This document shows positions 35,529-43,100 of a stretch of DNA of 43,973 nucleotides, piece after piece. Source of the stretch: Acidobacteriaceae bacterium (GTDB taxonomy: Bacteria > Acidobacteriota > Terriglobia > Terriglobales > Acidobacteriaceae); assembly GCA_030041515.1 (NCBI GenBank), contig JASHNS010000044.1:1-43973 (forward strand), written 5' to 3'. The notes below the pieces were generated by a model. It searched no databases. It saw only the letters and a list, made by a program, of their open reading frames with translations, and was not told where the DNA came from. The position numbers and the translations under genes were made by a program. How positions within the stretch are numbered: the first letter of the stretch is position 1; every line of letters starts with the position of its first letter.

Positions 35529-38060
35529 CTACGGCTCCAGCCGCAGTGTGTGAACCGTGGCCGCCATCACTGCCTGATCCGTAAAGGGCAGCGCAAAAGT
35601 GCGGCCGTGGTACCAGTAAGACCATTGATCGCGGTAATACGAGCTCAGCGGATCGCCCGACTCGCCCATTACGATGTTCTCCGTTGCCGAGTCCACGTTT
35701 CCCCAGTCGATCGTGAACCGCTGCGAAGGGCCGAAGGTGCGCGCCACCTGCTTCACGGTCGTCGTGTCGCCGGACTGGGGCTGGGACCCGGTCCCCGTCC
35801 AGCTCCTGAACCATGGCAGCAGCCCATAGATCGGATGCTCGACGTCTACAGGATGCGCGTACCCATACCGCCACTTGCTCAGGTCGGGAGGGGCGCCGTC
35901 CATCATGAGACCCTGCCGCACGCAGTCTGCGAGAAAATCATCCCATCCTGGATACTTTGGTGGCAGCCATGCCGGATCTTCTTTCATCATGATTTGCTCA
36001 CCGGCGTAGATGCTCTCTCCCCACCGATAGTCCTTCCACATATTGCCCAATTTTGGCTGGAGCAACATCGGGTAGAAAGCCTGCTTCGCCGCCGCGACGA
36101 TTGCCGCCGGCGCTGAGTCGATGCTGACCACCCCATCCCAGGTTCGCAGCAGGTCCGCCGCCTGTCGCAGTTGTTTGCCAGCGTGGTCGGCATGGTCGAT
36201 ACCATACGCCAGCCGCTGCGCGATCTCCTGATCCACTTCCGAATACACGTCCGATTGCAGGATCAGCATGTCTTTTGGCGTCAATCCTGTCTTCGGGCCC
36301 AGCCATTTCCAGATTCGCTCGTTGCGGTATGGATCTCCCCACTCCAGCGTCGGAGGATAGATGTCGCCCTTCGGGGTGACTCGCGAGTTGGCAGTCGCGA
36401 GCAGGCCACCCGGCGGATCGTACGACCAGGGAAGCTCGTCCACGGGAATGAATCCCTGCCACTGGTGCGTATCGTCCGTGATCGGCATGCCTTCCAGACC
36501 ATTCGGACGCATCGGGATGAGGCCCACGGCCTGATAGCCGATATTTCCCTGATCATCGGCGTACACCACATTCTGCGTCGGAGCCCACCACTGGCTGAGA
36601 GCCCGGCGAAAATCCGCCCAATTAGCCGCTGTATCCAGCGCCTGCAACGGAAATCCGTGCGCAGCTGCGCTGTAAATCGTCCAGTCCAGCGCGAGAGTTC
36701 GCTTTTCGCCGGGAATCAGCGGCGTAATCACCACGCCATGATCGGTGCGCTCCACATCCACCGTCACATCGTGTTTGCCACGGATCCGGATCGTTTGCAG
36801 GTCGTGCTGCAGCGGATGCCACACGCCGTCAGTTCCCAGATACTCACCCTGCTCGTTGGTTTTTTCCACGTAAATGTCCTGCGTGTCGCCATAAAGCGCC
36901 GTAAATCCCCACGCAATATGCCCGTTGTGGCCGGCAACAACAAATGGAAGTCCCGGCACGCTCAGACCAGCCGCATGAAATCCTGGCGCTTCCATGTCGA
37001 TCTCGTACCAGATGTTCGGAATCTGGTGCGCCAGGTGCATGTCATTCGAGAGCATCGCGTGTCCGCTGGCGGTCTTCGCCCCGGAAACGACCCACTGATT
37101 CGAACCCGGATCGCACCCGGGACAGTCGGACGCGCTGCTTTTCAGCACCTCCGACCACAATGTGCCGGAGTCGCGCGATCCAAACCGGTTCGCCGCGAGG
37201 CGAGCCGGCAACGGAAACGTATCCGGACTGCTCTCCGGCCGGCTCTCTGCGTCCGCCGCTGTAAGGCCTCCCTCCCAGGCCCTCGCTTCAAATCCTGTCT
37301 GGCTCTTGTCGAGGGGAACATCCGGAATCACCTGATTCGGTGTTGAGATCGAAGGCTGGCTTGAAATCACCGGATGATCTCGCCACGTTGTTGAAGGGTA
37401 GAGATCTGCCGCCAATGTTGGTCCCAGTTTGGCTGTGATCCGTTCACGCTCGATCTTCTCCGGCCAATGCTCGTCGAGCATCTGCACCATCCCCAGCGCC
37501 ACTGTGATGGAATCGGCGGGAGTCCAGGCTCGAGGCCGGTACATCAGAAGGCGGATCTCCGCCGGCAGCCGGTCCTGATGCGACTGGATGTACGCATTGA
37601 CGCCCCGAGCGTAGTCTTCCATATGCTGGCGATCCTGGTCGTCCAGCTGCGCCGTCATCCGCTCTGCCGTCGCGCGAAGGGCTAACATCCGCTGGATCCG
37701 ATCGTGCTCCAGCAGTTTTGGTCCCAGGATTTCCGCTGCATCGCCCGCAGTCATGCGCCGCGCCATATCGAGTTCCCACAACCGGTCCTGAGCGGTCACA
37801 TAGCCTTGCGCAAAGAGGAGATCATCCAGATTGGCAGCCTGGATGTGCGGTACCCCGTGCTGGTCGCGCCGCACGGTCACCGCCGCCTTCAACCCGCTCA
37901 GATAAACCGTCCCGTCCAGTTGAGGCAGGGACGCACGCATGGCGTGCATCAACCACCATCCGCATCCGAATGCCGCGAGCACTACGATCAGGGCGAGGAC
38001 CAGCAGCCCAGCTGCCACGCGCAATGCAGCACCCCCGCCCTCAGCCCTGACGAAGCTCAT
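35529..38060 (-). CDS. Penicillin acylase family protein (Ntn hydrolase)
   Basis: This 843-residue precursor has an N-terminal membrane segment (residues 12-36) and the penicillin amidase fold: VRRDQHGVPHIQA, AQGYVTAQDRLWELDMARR, then the autoprocessing site PGSNQWVVSG with nucleophile S320, and LSNDMHLAHQIPNIWYEI. Precursor self-cleavage before S320 would give alpha and beta chains, acting in the periplasm. Substrates in the family include penicillins, acyl-homoserine lactones and other amides; an AHL-acylase (quorum-quenching) role is possible but unproven. ATG 38060 lies 49 bp from the divergent MpaB gene. Confidence 0.93.
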   Translation of the reverse strand: MSFVRAEGGGAALRVAAGLLVLALIVVLAAFGCGWWLMHAMRASLPQLDGTVYLSGLKAAVTVRRDQHGVPHIQAANLDDLLFAQGYVTAQDRLWELDMARRMTAGDAAEILGPKLLEHDRIQRMLALRATAERMTAQLDDQDRQHMEDYARGVNAYIQSHQDRLPAEIRLLMYRPRAWTPADSITVALGMVQMLDEHWPEKIERERITAKLGPTLAADLYPSTTWRDHPVISSQPSISTPNQVIPDVPLDKSQTGFEARAWEGGLTAADAESRPESSPDTFPLPARLAANRFGSRDSGTLWSEVLKSSASDCPGCDPGSNQWVVSGAKTASGHAMLSNDMHLAHQIPNIWYEIDMEAPGFHAAGLSVPGLPFVVAGHNGHIAWGFTALYGDTQDIYVEKTNEQGEYLGTDGVWHPLQHDLQTIRIRGKHDVTVDVERTDHGVVITPLIPGEKRTLALDWTIYSAAAHGFPLQALDTAANWADFRRALSQWWAPTQNVVYADDQGNIGYQAVGLIPMRPNGLEGMPITDDTHQWQGFIPVDELPWSYDPPGGLLATANSRVTPKGDIYPPTLEWGDPYRNERIWKWLGPKTGLTPKDMLILQSDVYSEVDQEIAQRLAYGIDHADHAGKQLRQAADLLRTWDGVVSIDSAPAAIVAAAKQAFYPMLLQPKLGNMWKDYRWGESIYAGEQIMMKEDPAWLPPKYPGWDDFLADCVRQGLMMDGAPPDLSKWRYGYAHPVDVEHPIYGLLPWFRSWTGTGSQPQSGDTTTVKQVARTFGPSQRFTIDWGNVDSATENIVMGESGDPLSSYYRDQWSYWYHGRTFALPFTDQAVMAATVHTLRLEP

Positions 38061-38086
38061 GCAGTCCCATTCTCGCAGACTGAAAT

Positions 38087-38114
38087 GCCATGTCTCCGAT
38101 AATGGAGACATGGC
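38087..38114. promoter_or_regulatory. 11-bp inverted repeat covering the ribosome-binding site and start of the MpaB gene
   Basis: GCCATGTCTCC (38087-38097) and GGAGACATGGC (38104-38114) are perfect complements separated by GATAAT. The right arm contains GGAG and the ATG 38110-38112 of the DUF2236 gene, so in RNA the start region would be locked in a stem. As DNA it is also a good dimeric operator in the divergent gap. Confidence 0.65.
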
Positions 38115-39078
38115 GCGCCTTGTCTCTCGTAACGATCTGGAAAGCCTTCTCGCCTCCATCGAGCGTGCCTGCCCTGATCCGCGCGCCGGCATATTCGGCC
38201 CTGACTCCGCCACCTGGAGGCTCAGCCGCGAGTCCGCCGTTTTCCTTGGCGCCGGCCGCGCTGCTCTTCTCCAGCTCGCGCATCCCTGGGTGGCAACCGC
38301 GCTCGCCCAACATTCATCGCTGCTCAACGATCCCATTGCCAGGTTTCACAATACGTTTCGCATCGTCTTCACGATGATCTTCGGCTCGCTGCAGCAGGCT
38401 TCGGCCGCCGCGCGCCACCTGCACACGCTCCATACCCACATTCAGGGCGAATTGACTGAGCCGGCAGCTGCGTGGCCACGCGGCGCTCATTACGAAGCGA
38501 ATGAGATCCCCGCCCTCCGATGGGTTTACGCGACCCTCGTCGAAAGTGCTGTCCTCGCCTGCGAATCGGTGATGCCGTTCAGCCGTGCAGACCGCGAGGC
38601 GTATTACCGCGAAAGTCGTACGATGGCTGCGCTTTTCGGTCTTCCCCCCTCGGCTCTACCCCCTGACTGGGCGGCCTTTCAGGAGTACGTCGGCCGCATG
38701 ACCGATTCCGGGGAACTTGGCGTCAGTCCCCCGGCTCAATCCATGGCACGGGCCATCCTTGCCGGGGCGGGCTCCTGGATACACCCACCGCACTGGTACC
38801 GTGCCCTCACGACTTCATGGCTCCCCCTCCGGTTTCAGGAAGAATTCGCCCTTAGCTGGGGCGCTGCGGAACAGCAAGCCGCCGCCTGCGCTTGCCGCTG
38901 GCTTCCTCGCGTCTATCGGGCAATTCCGTCGTCGATTCGTTTCGTCGGTCCGTACTTTGAAGCCCAGGCGAGACTGGCTGGCCATGGTCCCGGATGGCTC
39001 GCGCGCCGCAGCAACGCCTTCTGGACCGGCCAGCCCGTCCTGCCCTTCGCCTTCTGGCCAAATGTCGGATCCGGGTAA
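38110..39078 (+). CDS. Oxygenase MpaB family / DUF2236 protein
   Basis: This protein of about 322 residues resembles the DUF2236 family, related to rubber oxygenase Lcp and fungal MpaB. Landmarks are FLGAGRAALLQLAHPWVATALAQHS, FHNTFRIVFTMIFGS, an ALRWVYATLVESAVLACE helix and SRADREAYYRESRTMAALFGL. Histidines in the first helix pair could bind heme b. The substrate is unknown. ATG 38110 is within an inverted repeat; a longer frame from 38059 overlaps the divergent penicillin-acylase start and is unlikely. Confidence 0.9.
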   Translation: MARLVSRNDLESLLASIERACPDPRAGIFGPDSATWRLSRESAVFLGAGRAALLQLAHPWVATALAQHSSLLNDPIARFHNTFRIVFTMIFGSLQQASAAARHLHTLHTHIQGELTEPAAAWPRGAHYEANEIPALRWVYATLVESAVLACESVMPFSRADREAYYRESRTMAALFGLPPSALPPDWAAFQEYVGRMTDSGELGVSPPAQSMARAILAGAGSWIHPPHWYRALTTSWLPLRFQEEFALSWGAAEQQAAACACRWLPRVYRAIPSSIRFVGPYFEAQARLAGHGPGWLARRSNAFWTGQPVLPFAFWPNVGSG

Positions 39079-39094
39079 CTTTCACTCCCGCCAT

Positions 39095-39124
39095 TTGACA
39101 TCGCCGGCCGCGACAACCTACCCT
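39095..39124 (+). promoter_or_regulatory. Candidate sigma-70-type promoter of the Cys leader / peroxiredoxin unit
   Basis: TTGACA (39095-39100) is a perfect -35. After an 18-nt spacer, TACCCT (39119-39124) fits TAnnnT. The start point would fall near 39131, placing ATG 39134 of the leader ORF at or within a few bases of the 5' end. Confidence 0.6.
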
Positions 39125-39127
39125 GAT

Positions 39128-39205
39128 ATGCAGATGAAACCTCTCTACCCAACCTGCATGTGTATGTGCTGCTGTTGCGGCTGCGCCATGCGGGTGCACA
39201 CCTGA
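39128..39205 (+). CDS. Cysteine-rich leader peptide (candidate attenuator uORF)
   Basis: This is a 25-codon ORF (23 codons if the second ATG, 39134, is used). It encodes seven Cys: 39155, 39161, four consecutive codons at 39167-39178, and 39182. The core reads CMCMCCCCGC, followed by AMRVHT and a TGA. No ribosome-binding site precedes it, which fits a leaderless start at the predicted transcription start. An intrinsic terminator lies 34 nt after its stop, and the peroxiredoxin gene follows. Bases 39190-39196 (GCGGGTG, spanning the Met-Arg-Val codons) can pair with 39244-39250 (CACCCGC), the left arm of the terminator. The peptide probably acts through its translation and not as a product. Confidence 0.7.
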   Translation: MQMKPLYPTCMCMCCCCGCAMRVHT

Positions 39206-39239
39206 GAGAGACGATTCGACAAGTTTCGAGCATCCTCAG

Positions 39240-39273
39240 AACCCACCCGCTGCTTTAACCGGGTGGGTTTTTT
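39240..39273 (+). terminator. Intrinsic terminator / attenuator before the peroxiredoxin gene
   Basis: Perfect 10-bp arms AACCCACCCG (39240-39249) and CGGGTGGGTT (39260-39269) with a 10-nt loop run directly into six T residues (39268-39273). It could end MpaB transcripts, but the promoter and uORF between that gene and the hairpin, and the lack of a recognisable promoter in 39274-39321, point to regulated read-through into the peroxiredoxin gene. Confidence 0.88.
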
Positions 39274-39321
39274 CGCCCCCGGGCGCAGCTCAAACGCATC
39301 GCCTCAGGAGGAATCAGTATC

Positions 39322-39978
39322 ATGTCTCTTCGCATCAACGATATTGCGCCGAATTTCACCGCCGAGACAACCCACGGTACCATCCATTTTCACGACTGGA
39401 TCGATGGTCATTGGGCCGTCCTCTTTTCCCACCCCAAGGACTTTACGCCGGTGTGCACCACCGAACTGGGCGCCGTCGCCGGCCTCGAGAAGGAATTCGC
39501 GAAACGCGGCGCGAAAGTCATCGGCCTCTCCGTCGATCCCGTCGACAGTCACAGGAAGTGGGAAGGCGACATTCGCGACGTCACCGGCCACACGGTCAAT
39601 TACCCCATGATTGGTGATCCGGAGCTCAAGGTGGCGAAACTCTACGACATGCTGCCCGCTGATGCCGGCGACACATCCGAAGGCCGCACTCCGGCGCACA
39701 ATGCCACTGTCCGCACAGTATTCGTGATCGGACCCGATAAGCGCATCAAACTCCACTTGTCCTATCCCATGAGTACCGGCCGTAATTTCGATGAGATCCT
39801 GCGCGTGCTTGACTCCATGCAGCTCACCGCAAAGCACAAGGTCTCCACTCCTGCCAACTGGAAGCAGGGCGATGACATCATCATCGGCGGAGCGGTTTCC
39901 AATGAGGAGGCCGATAAGCTCTTCCCCGGCTACAAGACGGTGAAGCCGTATCTGCGCACAGCGCCTCAACCGCAGTAA
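39322..39978 (+). CDS. 1-Cys peroxiredoxin (Prx6 type)
   Basis: This 218-residue protein reduces peroxides through C45 in HPKDFTPVCTTELG. The long C-terminal domain (ADKLFPGYKTVKPYLR) is characteristic of the Prx6 subfamily. MSLRINDIAPNFTAETTHG is a typical N terminus. A strong AGGAGG lies at 39305-39310, 10 nt before the ATG. The gene follows a Cys-rich uORF and terminator and precedes tRNA-Cys, a context suggesting that its expression follows cysteine supply or thiol stress. Confidence 0.95.
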   Translation: MSLRINDIAPNFTAETTHGTIHFHDWIDGHWAVLFSHPKDFTPVCTTELGAVAGLEKEFAKRGAKVIGLSVDPVDSHRKWEGDIRDVTGHTVNYPMIGDPELKVAKLYDMLPADAGDTSEGRTPAHNATVRTVFVIGPDKRIKLHLSYPMSTGRNFDEILRVLDSMQLTAKHKVSTPANWKQGDDIIIGGAVSNEEADKLFPGYKTVKPYLRTAPQPQ

Positions 39979-40001
39979 ACGAAAATGTCATGAGTTCCAA
40001 A

Positions 40002-40027
40002 TCCGCCTCTGCGCTCGCAGAGGCGGA
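40002..40027. terminator. Strong hairpin between peroxiredoxin and tRNA-Cys
   Basis: TCCGCCTCTGCG (40002-40013) and CGCAGAGGCGGA (40016-40027) are perfect 12-nt arms around a 2-nt centre. There is no T-run on the plus strand. It ends 6 bp before the tRNA, so it may be a weak terminator or an RNA-processing signal if the genes are co-transcribed. Confidence 0.5.
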
Positions 40028-40033
40028 ACAAGG

Positions 40034-40109
40034 GCACCGGTGGCGAAGCGGCTAACGCGCTGGTCTGCAAAACCAGTATTCGCGGGTTCAATTCCCGCCC
40101 GGTGCTCCA
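40034..40109 (+). tRNA. tRNA-Cys (anticodon GCA)
   Basis: The cloverleaf folds fully. The acceptor stem GCACCGG (40034-40040) pairs with CCGGTGC (40099-40105). The D stem is GCG/CGC. The anticodon stem CTGGT/ACCAG encloses loop CTGCAAA with anticodon GCA at 40067-40069. The variable loop has five bases, and the T stem GCGGG/CCCGC encloses TTCAATT. The discriminator is T (U73), the identity base of tRNA-Cys, and CCA is encoded (40107-40109). Confidence 0.96.
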
Positions 40110-40119
40110 AAGTTCAAGG

Positions 40120-40149
40120 AAAAAGGCTCTGCCCGCGGGCAGAGCCTTT
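40120..40149. terminator. Bidirectional terminator between tRNA-Cys and the TonB receptor gene
   Basis: AAAGGCTCTGCCC (40122-40134) and GGGCAGAGCCTTT (40137-40149) are perfect 13-bp arms. On the minus strand the stem is followed by TTTTT (40124-40120), giving a good intrinsic terminator for the receptor. On the plus strand it would end the tRNA transcript with a shorter T-run. Confidence 0.85.
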
Positions 40150-40166
40150 CAGTTTGGCGGCGCAGT

Positions 40167-43100
40167 TTAGAAGTCGTACCGCAGGGCAAACTGCATCCGC
40201 CGGGGCTGGCTCATCTCGGAGCTGGCGATGCCAAGGTTGTTGTCCGTGAGCCCCGATCCTATGGACTGGGGATCAAAGCGCACCGTATTGGTGACGTTAT
40301 AGATCTCCCAATCAAATTTCAGGGTGCCGTCCTCCAGGAATCCGCTTCCGGCGGAGATCTTCCACGATTTGTTCAACCCCGAGTCGATGTCCATCAACCC
40401 ATCGCCACGGAAGTTGTTCCGCTCCCCTGTCTCGCCAGGATAGGGCAGCCGGATGCCGCCGGCAGGACCGGATTGACCAGGACAGAGTCGGCCGCCGCAG
40501 GTGAGGCTGGTATTGATGGCCGCCGCGTCGTCAAAATACAGGGGATCCCCAAAGGAATCGAAGTGTTTGTGCACTCTGACCTCGCCAGGATTGGTCACAA
40601 TTCCAAAGCCTTCCTGCTGCCAGTTGGTGGTAAAGCCGGGCTCGAATAATGAGAACGGCAAACCGCTGCTGACACGGCTCAGGCCGGACAGCTGCCAGCC
40701 CCCAACGAAAAAGTTCTCGAAACGATTGTCGTTCGCCAGGAGCTGCCGCCCATGTCCAAACGGCAGGTCCCACAACCCGTCCACCGTGATCAGGCTGCGC
40801 GCATCGAAGTCGGAGGGCCCGCGATTCAATTGCGGCTTCCACGTGTTGATGATGCTGCTCAGCGCTCTGCTGGTGCTGAACTCGATGCTGCGCTCCGCAT
40901 CGGAACCTTCATCCTCCGATTTCGAGAACGTATAGCTGACGGTCAGATCCAGACCATGCGTGAAGGGATGGCTCAGGGTAAACTGCATCGCGTTGTAGTA
41001 GCTCATGCCCATCGCCGCCAGCGAATACAGCGACGAGAACTGGGATTGCCAGAAGTGCGGCACCCAGTTGGCGGGCGCGGGATAGAAACCAAATCCGGAG
41101 GACGCGGGTCCGAAGAAGTCGAGGTCCGCCAGCGCCGAGGTCGCACCAAGGTTTGAGCGGTAGGGAACCCACTCGTTGTTGAAGATGGCCTGGGTCGCGC
41201 TCTCGCCGGAATAGTCGTAATTCGCCATCCAGGGAAACACATCCTCAAAGTACTGAATCGGCTGGATGGTCTGCGTGTTGCCAACAACGTACGGCGGGCT
41301 CGTGTTGCTGTAAATGCAGTGGCAGCTTCCGTCGTTGAGATCCACTTCTCTTGAGAGTTTCGATCCGGCATGGAAATAATCGCCCCCGCCCTGCGGATCC
41401 ACATAGTCCGTTGGCTCGGCGAGATCGAGTTGCTGCAGCAGATGCCGGCCCAGGGTGCCGACATAATCCGTTTCCAGCGTCCAGCCGCCAAACTGATGCT
41501 GTATCGAAAGGTTGAAAGCCTCCGTGTACGGCGTCTTGATCTGGCTGTCCAGACCCCAGGTGATCGCGAATCCCATGACTGGATCGAACGGCGGCGTATA
41601 CGGATAGGTCTGCGGAGAAGCGCCCGCACCATTTGTAAAGGGCAGCACGTTCCGGGCTGTGTAGCGTGGCGAACTCTCGGAATCGTAGGTGCTCGCAGCG
41701 TTGGTGACGGCGCCGCTCAGCCCATAAGACCCATTCTGGTCGAAGATATTCACCAGGCCTTCGCCGAAATTGTCGTAGTAGATGCCGGCGCCCGCCCGGA
41801 TCGTCGTGTGGGACGTCGGAGCGTAAGCAATCGCGAGGCGCGGCGCGATCGCGTCCTTCGACATCGGATAAAAGCCGGGCTTCCCGTAATAGTTGCCCGC
41901 CGGAGCGAAGGTGAGCAACGGCTCGTAGATCTGGCCCTGCAACGCGGCCGCTTCCCGCTGTTTGTACCAGGTATGCGTGTCGATCGTCGGCGTCACTTCC
42001 TGGCCATCGGTCTCATACGGCGTTTCCAGCAGCGTGTGCCGCATACCCACCGTGATCGTGAGATTCGGCAGCGGCTTCCACGCGTCCTGCAGGTAGTACT
42101 CAAAGTTCCACGCCCGGAAGCGGCGGGTGAGCGGCGCTCCGTCGGCCAGCAATGTGCCGGACGTCGCGCTGGTCAGCTGGTAGTTGTACTGATTCGTCAC
42201 TGACGGCACCGTCCCTACCAGGTTGGCATAGGCAATCACATAGGAATTCGCGAAGCCTGAGTCGTAGGTGGGATACCCTGCGAGGGTGGCTGGATCCGGC
42301 GGACTTCCCCCCAGCCAGTAAGGATTCGTGCTGCCGCTGTTGAAGGATGCGGCGTTCGAAACTCGATTCTGATCGATCAGCCGCCAGTTCGCTCCAAACT
42401 GAAAATCATGCTTGCCGTGATTCCAGTTGAAGTTGTCGACGATGTTGTTCACCGGCACGGATGAGATGGTGGTCCGGGTTTCCGCCGTCGGCGTATCCAT
42501 GAAGCGAAAATCGACATAATCGCCCTGCCCAATCCCGACGTTCCCATATCCCTGGCGGATATAGCCGTATCGGATATCATTCACCAGATTCGGCGAAATC
42601 GACCAGGTATCGCCCCCGATGATGCCCTTCGTGTTGTCCTCGAGCACGTAGGACGGCGGCTGCCCGGGAAATTGCTCCACACCATAGCTGGTGTCCTTCT
42701 GCAGGCCGCCCCGCACGAAGATACGATGCTTCTCAGTCGGCGTGTAATCCAGCCGGATAATACTCGTATTCAGGCTGAGCGGATCGGGCGAAGCAAACGT
42801 AAACGAGCCCGTGTTCAAACCGTCGCCGAGCAGGGTGCCGTTGGCCACCGGCTCAGATTTGAAGTAGCTGGTCGCGTTTGGATCCGGCCCCGGACCGAGC
42901 GGATACTGGGAGCTCTCGCAGCCGCCCTCGCTGATGCATCCCTGATCCAGCGTCGTCACCTGAGCACGCGAGAGCGTGATCGGCGCGCCTCCGCCCGATG
43001 GAAGGTAAATCAGGTTCCCGTTCAGATAGGACTGCGTCGCCACCGTCCGGCTCACCGTGGCGTCCTCCGCCTGACGCGTCGCCTCGTAGTTGCCGAAGAA

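Follow-up and report, generated by a model that had tools for sequence, protein, structure and literature searches.

A candidate cysteine-codon attenuator upstream of a peroxiredoxin gene and an accessory tRNA-Cys gene in Acidobacteriaceae

Organization of the leader, prx and tRNA-Cys2 locus

We analyzed a stretch of 43,973 nt (hereafter, the window) from contig JASHNS010000044.1 of an Acidobacteriaceae bacterium (GCA_030041515.1). All features described below are located on its forward strand. A peroxiredoxin gene (prx, 39322–39978), assigned by domain match to AhpC/TSA with a 1-cysPrx_C domain, is preceded by a Cys-rich leader ORF and a terminator hairpin. ARAGORN and Rfam (RF00005) predicted a tRNA-Cys(GCA) gene, named tRNA-Cys2 here, at 40034–40109, on the same strand as prx and 55 nt past its stop codon; at the gathering threshold, Rfam matches in the window were limited to tRNA. 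tRNA-Cys2 is flanked by two strong hairpins, at 40002–40027 (−23.1 kcal/mol) and 40122–40149 (−22.6 kcal/mol). The former, a GC-rich hairpin without a U-tract in the gap between prx and the tRNA gene, may be a processing site. The latter (AAAGGCTCTGCCCGCGGGCAGAGCCTTT), located 3′ of the tRNA gene, is the likely transcript end; its three T residues belong to the stem, and no longer T run follows.

The leader ORF extends from the ATG at 39134 to the TGA at 39203–39205 and encodes the peptide MKPLYPTCMCMCCCCGCAMRVHT. It has 23 codons, or 25 if translation begins at another in-frame ATG at 39128. Seven of the 23 codons are Cys codons, four of them consecutive (TGC, TGT, TGC TGC TGT TGC, and TGC; 39155–39184), and these are the predicted regulatory codons. 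A promoter-like sequence (39095–39124) consisting of TTGACA (39095–39100), an 18-nt spacer, and TACCCT (39119–39124) lies upstream. The ATG at 39134 is nine nt after the −10 element and the ATG at 39128 only three nt; the former is most likely the start codon used, and the leader ORF is probably leaderless. A preliminary description made from the window sequence had reported this promoter, the ORF, a terminator with six T, and complementarity between GCGGGTG and CACCCGC, and its coordinates proved correct when the sequence was re-read. The composition of the ORF was confirmed as well, and Cys-rich leaders were found in most near relatives. Among these relatives, the Cys codons are kept and much of the remaining peptide sequence is variable.

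A consensus scan of 38500–40400 detected no sigma-70 site, TACCCT matching 3 of 6 positions where the scan needs 4, and the terminator scan of the same generic promoter/terminator search did not list the leader hairpin. Of 50 leaders, 29 had an exact TTGACA motif 17 or 18 nt from a TAnnnT, itself placed 6–13 nt before the start codon; in this count, the start codon and the promoter were chosen jointly and no control was computed, and L020 has a doubtful TTG start. Homologues with less than 74% identity, duplicates, loci without a leader candidate, and L021, L022, L023, L028, L035, L047, and L056 were left out of the 50. Because relatives carry TTGACA/TAnnnT at the same place, the promoter in the window is credible despite the failed consensus scan. 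Under a looser rule limited to the sigma-70-like type (at least 5 of 6 positions of TTGACA, 16–18 nt, TAnnnT), a promoter-like site was present 5′ of the leader in 62 of 71 leader-bearing tRNA-Cys2 loci. The interval from the leader to the tRNA gene contained no promoter-like site of this type in any of the 71 loci, and tRNA-Cys2 therefore seems dependent on read-through from the leader. This result also agrees with the earlier claim that no clear promoter lies between the terminator and the peroxiredoxin gene. The stretch from the promoter to the ORF was longer at loci with the tRNA gene alone than at prx loci. In a single case (L144), a leader located 5′ of prx and containing TGTTGTTGT is cut by an in-frame TGA before the usual end, which may reflect decay or selenocysteine (Sec).

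The genome of the window yielded 44 tRNA matches, including two tRNA-Cys genes (Rfam and ARAGORN). The possibility, raised by DNA searches, that tRNA-Cys is a single-copy gene was rejected by the second tRNA-Cys gene at G000:C89:7545–7619 (Rfam and ARAGORN), which adjoins a tRNA-Gly gene and has no Cys leader within 350 nt. This tRNA-Gly-adjacent tRNA-Cys had matches of varying strength (E ≤ 1e-6) in 178 of 200 genomes of the family; at least two leader-bearing genomes, G197 and the 70% complete G052, showed no match. tRNA-Cys2 accordingly reads as an accessory copy. None of the other tRNA genes in this genome had four or more consecutive cognate codons within 350 nt upstream, three Leu codons before tRNA-Leu(gag) being the longest run; a scan of this kind would miss tRNA genes located behind a protein gene, as it did tRNA-Cys2 itself.

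RNA pairings and their conservation

The terminator is formed by the arms 39241–39249 and 39260–39268, with six T at 39268–39273. Its left arm is part of segment 3 (ACCCACCCGC, 39241–39250), and its right arm and U-tract constitute segment 4 (CGGGTGGGT and the T6 tract, 39260–39273). Near the end of the leader ORF, GCGGGTG (39190–39196) in segment 2 (CATGCGGGTG, 39187–39196) is perfectly complementary to CACCCGC (39244–39250) in segment 3. The predicted fold of 39126–39274 had a z-score of −4.2, none of 200 shuffled sequences being as stable, and contained a third pairing between segment 1 (ACCTGCATG, 39152–39160), which contains the first Cys codon (39155–39157), and CATGCGGGT (39187–39195). 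Segment 2 therefore has two alternative partners: pairing with segment 1 gives the protector and pairing with segment 3 the antiterminator. Segment 3, in turn, can instead pair with segment 4 to form the terminator. The predicted energies of the protector, antiterminator, and terminator hairpins were −24.6, −24.0, and −19.4 kcal/mol, respectively. Together, the three predicted hairpins make up a complete classical 1:2/2:3/3:4 attenuator. The preliminary description had proposed a Cys-responsive attenuator before the peroxiredoxin gene; the comparative data below support this mechanism, while the protector arm and the tRNA-Cys gene that ends the operon had been missed.

A hairpin with a T run was located after the leader and before the genes in all 75 leaders surveyed; the automatic choice of the terminator misplaced it in at least L103, L107, and L137, where the expected hairpin is visible. 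The mutually exclusive protector and antiterminator pairings were also present, and they were weak in single sequences: tested one by one against mononucleotide shuffles (p ≤ 0.05), the 2:3 pairing stood out modestly in 21 of 75 leaders and the 1:2 pairing in 13 of 75.

Compensatory changes were evaluated in an alignment (A2) of 37 leaders, which are relatives, so that the counts below are not independent and kinship inflates the covariation figures. The protector and terminator pairs together scored 0.161, compared to 0.127 for shuffled alignments, and 23 cells were changed on both sides, compared to 7.1 after shuffling; neither value was reached by any of 500 shuffles. Both-side changes occurred in five protector pairs and two terminator pairs; for the protector arm, this corresponds to 5 of 9 pairs, with 73% of the cells paired in the 37 sequences. 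The count of seven such pairs says little alone because 5 of 500 shuffles reached it and two slid versions of the pairing had as many or more (7 and 8). The antiterminator scored 0.065, compared to 0.034 after shuffling, and had three pairs changed on both sides, compared to a shuffled mean of 0.6, again with 0 of 500 shuffles reaching either value. Its cells were paired in 90.7% of cases, compared to 35–54% when slid. The number of further pair types was no outlier, being reached by 42 of 500 shuffles for the protector and terminator and by 500 of 500 for the antiterminator. Individual sequences illustrate these changes: in L088, all three strands are altered together (CATCTGC/GCAGGTG/CACCTGC), in L110, segments 2 and 3 are altered (GCGGGTT/AACCCGC), and in L157 and L129, both protector strands (segments 1 and 2) are altered. 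The preliminary description had suggested looking among relatives for conserved Cys codons, a conserved terminator, and compensatory changes in the pairing, and the outcome was largely in its favor.

Two further lines of evidence were rejected. In leaders whose right arm reads GAGGTGGG, the terminal CGC of segment 3 appeared to be conserved without a use in the terminator; an inner stem of the terminator, however, uses this CGC in 12 of 13 folded relatives (in L147 in part), and it is therefore no separate evidence for the antiterminator. A shift in the reading frame of the peptide tail with retention of the RNA sequence was also rejected, since GGGTG was read in one frame in 43 of 49 leaders that carry it in the tail and in another frame in the other 6.

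Switching was simulated for 53 of the 75 leaders, those with consensus-like segments 2 and 3, and pairing was expressed as summed pairs divided by 5. When the RNA ended before the right arm of the terminator, the mean 2:3 pairing was 0.76 in the free RNA. A ribosome placed at the first Cys codon raised it to 1.31, one at the best Cys codon to 1.39, and one at the stop codon abolished it (0). For the window sequence, it increased from 0.22 in the free RNA to 1.39 with the ribosome on the Cys codons. A good part of the 53 leaders paired 2:3 already when free (e.g., L086, L088, L092, L099, and L107), and L110, L040, L083, and L115 never did, segment 3 of L110 being wrongly anchored by the script. 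With the right arm present, the terminator prevailed at equilibrium in most leaders (mean pairing 0.96 stalled vs 1.11 free), and its pairing in the window sequence was the same stalled or free. Equilibrium folding of full transcripts thus revealed no switch. Since the terminator dominates at equilibrium, the control would have to be kinetic; the control exerted by known attenuators is kinetic.

Genes accompanying the leader

Homologues of prx were collected as the best 80 of 528 loci in named genomes, Acidobacteriaceae first, and from 200 genomes of the window's family, from which at least 30 loci were used; homologues with less than 74% identity and duplicates were left out of the leader and terminator survey. 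Most of the closest relatives of prx had a Cys-rich leader within about 300 nt upstream and a tRNA-Cys gene 20–180 nt downstream. By eye, copies in distant bacteria such as Burkholderia, Rhizobacter, and Mesorhizobium had neither a tRNA-Cys gene downstream nor a comparable leader.

An independent search with tRNA-Cys2 in the 200 family genomes gave 60 full or nearly full-length places (at least 85% identity, surroundings at hand); G097:C124 (85%, 72 nt) and partial or weaker matches were left out. A Cys-rich leader was located upstream of 53 of these 60 genes under a rule that considers only the Cys-rich ORF and does not require a terminator; the same rule gave 2 of 60 on the opposite strand. 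The rule originally gave 54 leaders, one of which (L124, 1467 nt away) was set aside. The distance from the leader to tRNA-Cys2 was 785–948 nt in 44 loci, 114–151 nt in 8, and 1717 nt in one. In the eight loci with short distances (G169, G081, G197, G102, G183, G131, G083, and G177), the leader directly precedes tRNA-Cys2 with no peroxiredoxin gene in between. In five of the 44 (G072, G052 twice, G196, and G039), the intervening gene encodes a different peroxiredoxin with about 40% identity, and the intervening gene of G137 has no assignment. The locus with 1717 nt (G098) has two peroxiredoxin genes between the leader and tRNA-Cys2. The leader was missing at seven tRNA-Cys2 genes (three in G191 and one each in G020, G111, G182, and G026). 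G191, with its three leaderless tRNA-Cys2 genes (L122, L123, and L124), also has two leader-prx copies (L095 and L135).

In a larger set of loci, partly picked because of their leaders, a leader with a terminator was present at 71 of 86 tRNA-Cys2 genes, against 1 of 88 when the opposite strand was scanned. When 396 genomes of the phylum were searched with a covariance model (R1) built from the leader, 27 matches with E ≤ 1.1e-6 were obtained in the window's family, several of these sequences being part of the model. A tRNA-Cys gene was located downstream at 25 of the 27 loci, among them L203, which has no ORF passing the leader rule; for the other two (G399 and G098), the coordinates place tRNA-Cys2 about 1.6 kb downstream. 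R1 gave one strong match in the window's genome and missed G031 and G095, where the ORF rule gives a leader. tRNA-Cys2 itself was detected at E ≤ 1e-10 in 32 of the 396 genomes, 31 of which belong to the window's family. As the leader also occurs before tRNA-Cys2 without any peroxiredoxin gene, the peroxiredoxin is not its constant target. These comparisons indicate that, in the window's family, the leader tracks tRNA-Cys2 more closely than the peroxiredoxin.

A Sulfotelmatobacter-like branch carries tRNA-Sec(TCA) in place of tRNA-Cys downstream of prx (L142, L163, L164, L167, L036, L038, L083, L165, L151, and L173), and a Cys leader with a terminator often precedes prx there. Many leaders of this branch end in CG-stop; L173 has none, and L163 and L164 look degenerate.

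Polycysteine leaders were also present before other genes. The window's genome contains a second one (MALCPMPVMCCACCCALRRTCG; L178, G000:C94:44943–45070) followed by a terminator, before a gene for a nitrite/sulfite reductase domain protein; R1 matched it weakly (E 0.28). Among the NCBIfam models, ferredoxin-nitrite reductase and NirA scored best for this reductase, with no model reaching its cut-off, and sulfite is therefore a presumed substrate. Among the 30 family loci of this reductase (L230–L259), 26 had a candidate leader with at least three Cys codons, a count for which no control was computed and terminators were judged by eye. The misses were L245, L252, L253, and L259; L245 was scored as such with a 9-residue ORF containing three Cys codons inside the upstream coding region. 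In G033, a member of the window's genus, a nitrite/sulfite reductase gene with its own leader directly follows prx–tRNA-Cys2. In another Acidobacteriota family, cysH-like genes of five genomes are preceded by a leader containing 6–8 Cys codons and by a terminator (G529, G397, G217, G471, and G384; L206, L208, L211, L212, and L213). The downstream gene reads as the same gene in all five, and L212, the only one tested with NCBIfam, was assigned to cysH. Judging from the genes they precede, the reductase and cysH-like leaders are both consistent with a cysteine signal.

Proposed mechanism and its alternatives

The elements of the attenuator, their conservation, the compensatory changes, the linkage to the tRNA gene, and the lack of another site matching the promoter rule are read from the sequences. 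We estimate a probability of roughly 80% that prx and the accessory tRNA-Cys gene are controlled by ribosome-mediated transcription attenuation in response to charged Cys-tRNA. The stalling signal, the read-through, and the purpose are inferred as follows. The transcript would begin at or beside the leader ATG. When Cys-tRNA is plentiful, the ribosome would reach the stop codon and cover segment 2, or it would depart and leave segment 2 to pair with segment 1; segment 3 would then remain available to segment 4, the terminator would form, and prx and tRNA-Cys2 would be off. When Cys-tRNA is scarce, the ribosome would stall at the Cys codons and cover segment 1, so that segment 2 would pair with segment 3, the terminator would be blocked, and RNA polymerase would continue into prx and tRNA-Cys2. 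The purpose may be to provide more tRNA-Cys and peroxide defense under cysteine depletion, for example by oxidation. Since oxidative stress lowers usable cysteine, a shortage of Cys-tRNA could report oxidation and induce the peroxiredoxin. The extra tRNA-Cys could keep Cys codons readable or feed another Cys-tRNA-dependent reaction.

A more specific reading, which we consider probable, is that the tRNA gene is attenuated by the codons that it decodes: the accessory tRNA-Cys, distinct from the housekeeping one, would be expressed only during slow translation of Cys codons. The result would be a feedback loop from translation to a tRNA gene, linked to peroxide defense and conserved across one Acidobacteriota family, with tRNA-Sec in the same place in a sister branch. 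The same attenuator could instead be aimed at the peroxiredoxin only, with the tRNA gene as a passenger. This would fit the leader-prx copies without a tRNA-Cys gene within 800 nt (L092, L012, L013, L016, and L095) and the Sulfotelmatobacter-like branch, where prx preceded by the leader has tRNA-Sec or no tRNA gene found downstream. It is nevertheless unlikely: 8 of the 53 leader-bearing tRNA-Cys2 loci have no peroxiredoxin gene in between, and five more have the different peroxiredoxin. Beyond the exceptions listed here, prx copies without tRNA-Cys were, by eye, mostly without a polycysteine leader. In G169, moreover, prx (L092) and tRNA-Cys2 (L115) lie apart and each is equipped with a leader.

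Much less probable is a role of the Cys-rich peptide itself as the sensor, through ribosome arrest upon binding of a metal, a thiol, or an oxidant, as suggested for certain metal-responsive leader peptides. Metal binding by the CMCMCCCC pattern is conceivable and the neighboring gene encodes a peroxiredoxin, whereas the number and spacing of Cys residues vary (e.g., MCCCCPMPACG in L037 and CMCLCCCCCCCC in L111), the leader is part of the covarying RNA pairings, and 6 of 49 leaders read GGGTG in another frame. The further targets, cysH-like and nitrite/sulfite reductase genes, also argue against a peptide sensor. We give hardly any credence to a chance Cys-rich ORF in GC-rich DNA beside the ordinary terminator of an upstream gene; an ORF at 37939–39078 does end shortly before the leader on the same strand, but the recurrence of the Cys codons, promoter, terminator, and pairings in dozens of relatives contradicts this explanation.

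The proposed tRNA-Cys2 attenuator shares the architecture of protector, antiterminator, and terminator with classical attenuators of the trp/his/pheST type; there, the controlled product is an enzyme, and here it would be a tRNA. T-box riboswitches sense tRNA charging and switch between a terminator and an antiterminator through direct tRNA binding, whereas the leader in the window would use codons in an ORF, and the Rfam scan gave no T-box. The expression of bacterial tRNA genes is generally attributed to growth rate and promoter strength. Canestrari et al. (2020) reportedly studied leaderless polycysteine sORFs in mycobacteria. Their control is called translation attenuation in a later paper (PMC13236596, citing Canestrari). 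Mycobacterial cys leaders precede cysteine biosynthesis genes and, in PMC1262725 (2005), which also mentions trpS, leuS, and pheST in the context of attenuators, have no conserved terminator hairpin. They share with the window leader a polycysteine ORF, leaderless there and probably here, and respond to cysteine, as predicted here; they differ from it in their targets and in the U-tract terminator present in the window. The uORFC-8-2 motif upstream of cysS in Rhodobacterales, for which Cys-tRNA-dependent ribosome-mediated attenuation was proposed (PMC8632094, 2021), likewise combines tandem Cys codons in a uORF with a U-tract terminator. It has two Cys codons, targets cysteinyl-tRNA synthetase, and belongs to alphaproteobacteria, whereas the leader in the window precedes prx and tRNA-Cys2, not cysS, in Acidobacteriota. 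Our literature search, with most subscription journals outside it, found no report of ribosome-mediated attenuation of a tRNA gene. Attenuation caused by repeat elements placed before a tRNA reporter is described in PMC2965389, and a riboswitch located far 5′ of a Bacillus subtilis tRNA operon is a speculation in PMC4448311; nothing of relevance came from PMC8079986. The locus would represent a known mechanism on a new target class, Cys-codon attenuators being known for enzymes and the predicted target here being a tRNA gene.

If this interpretation is correct, the supply of a tRNA in some soil bacteria would be tuned by demand, sensed via the tRNA's own codons. The reason for a starvation-inducible second tRNA-Cys in this family, and for its tie to a peroxiredoxin, would become testable, and the charging of Cys-tRNA may serve as a redox signal.
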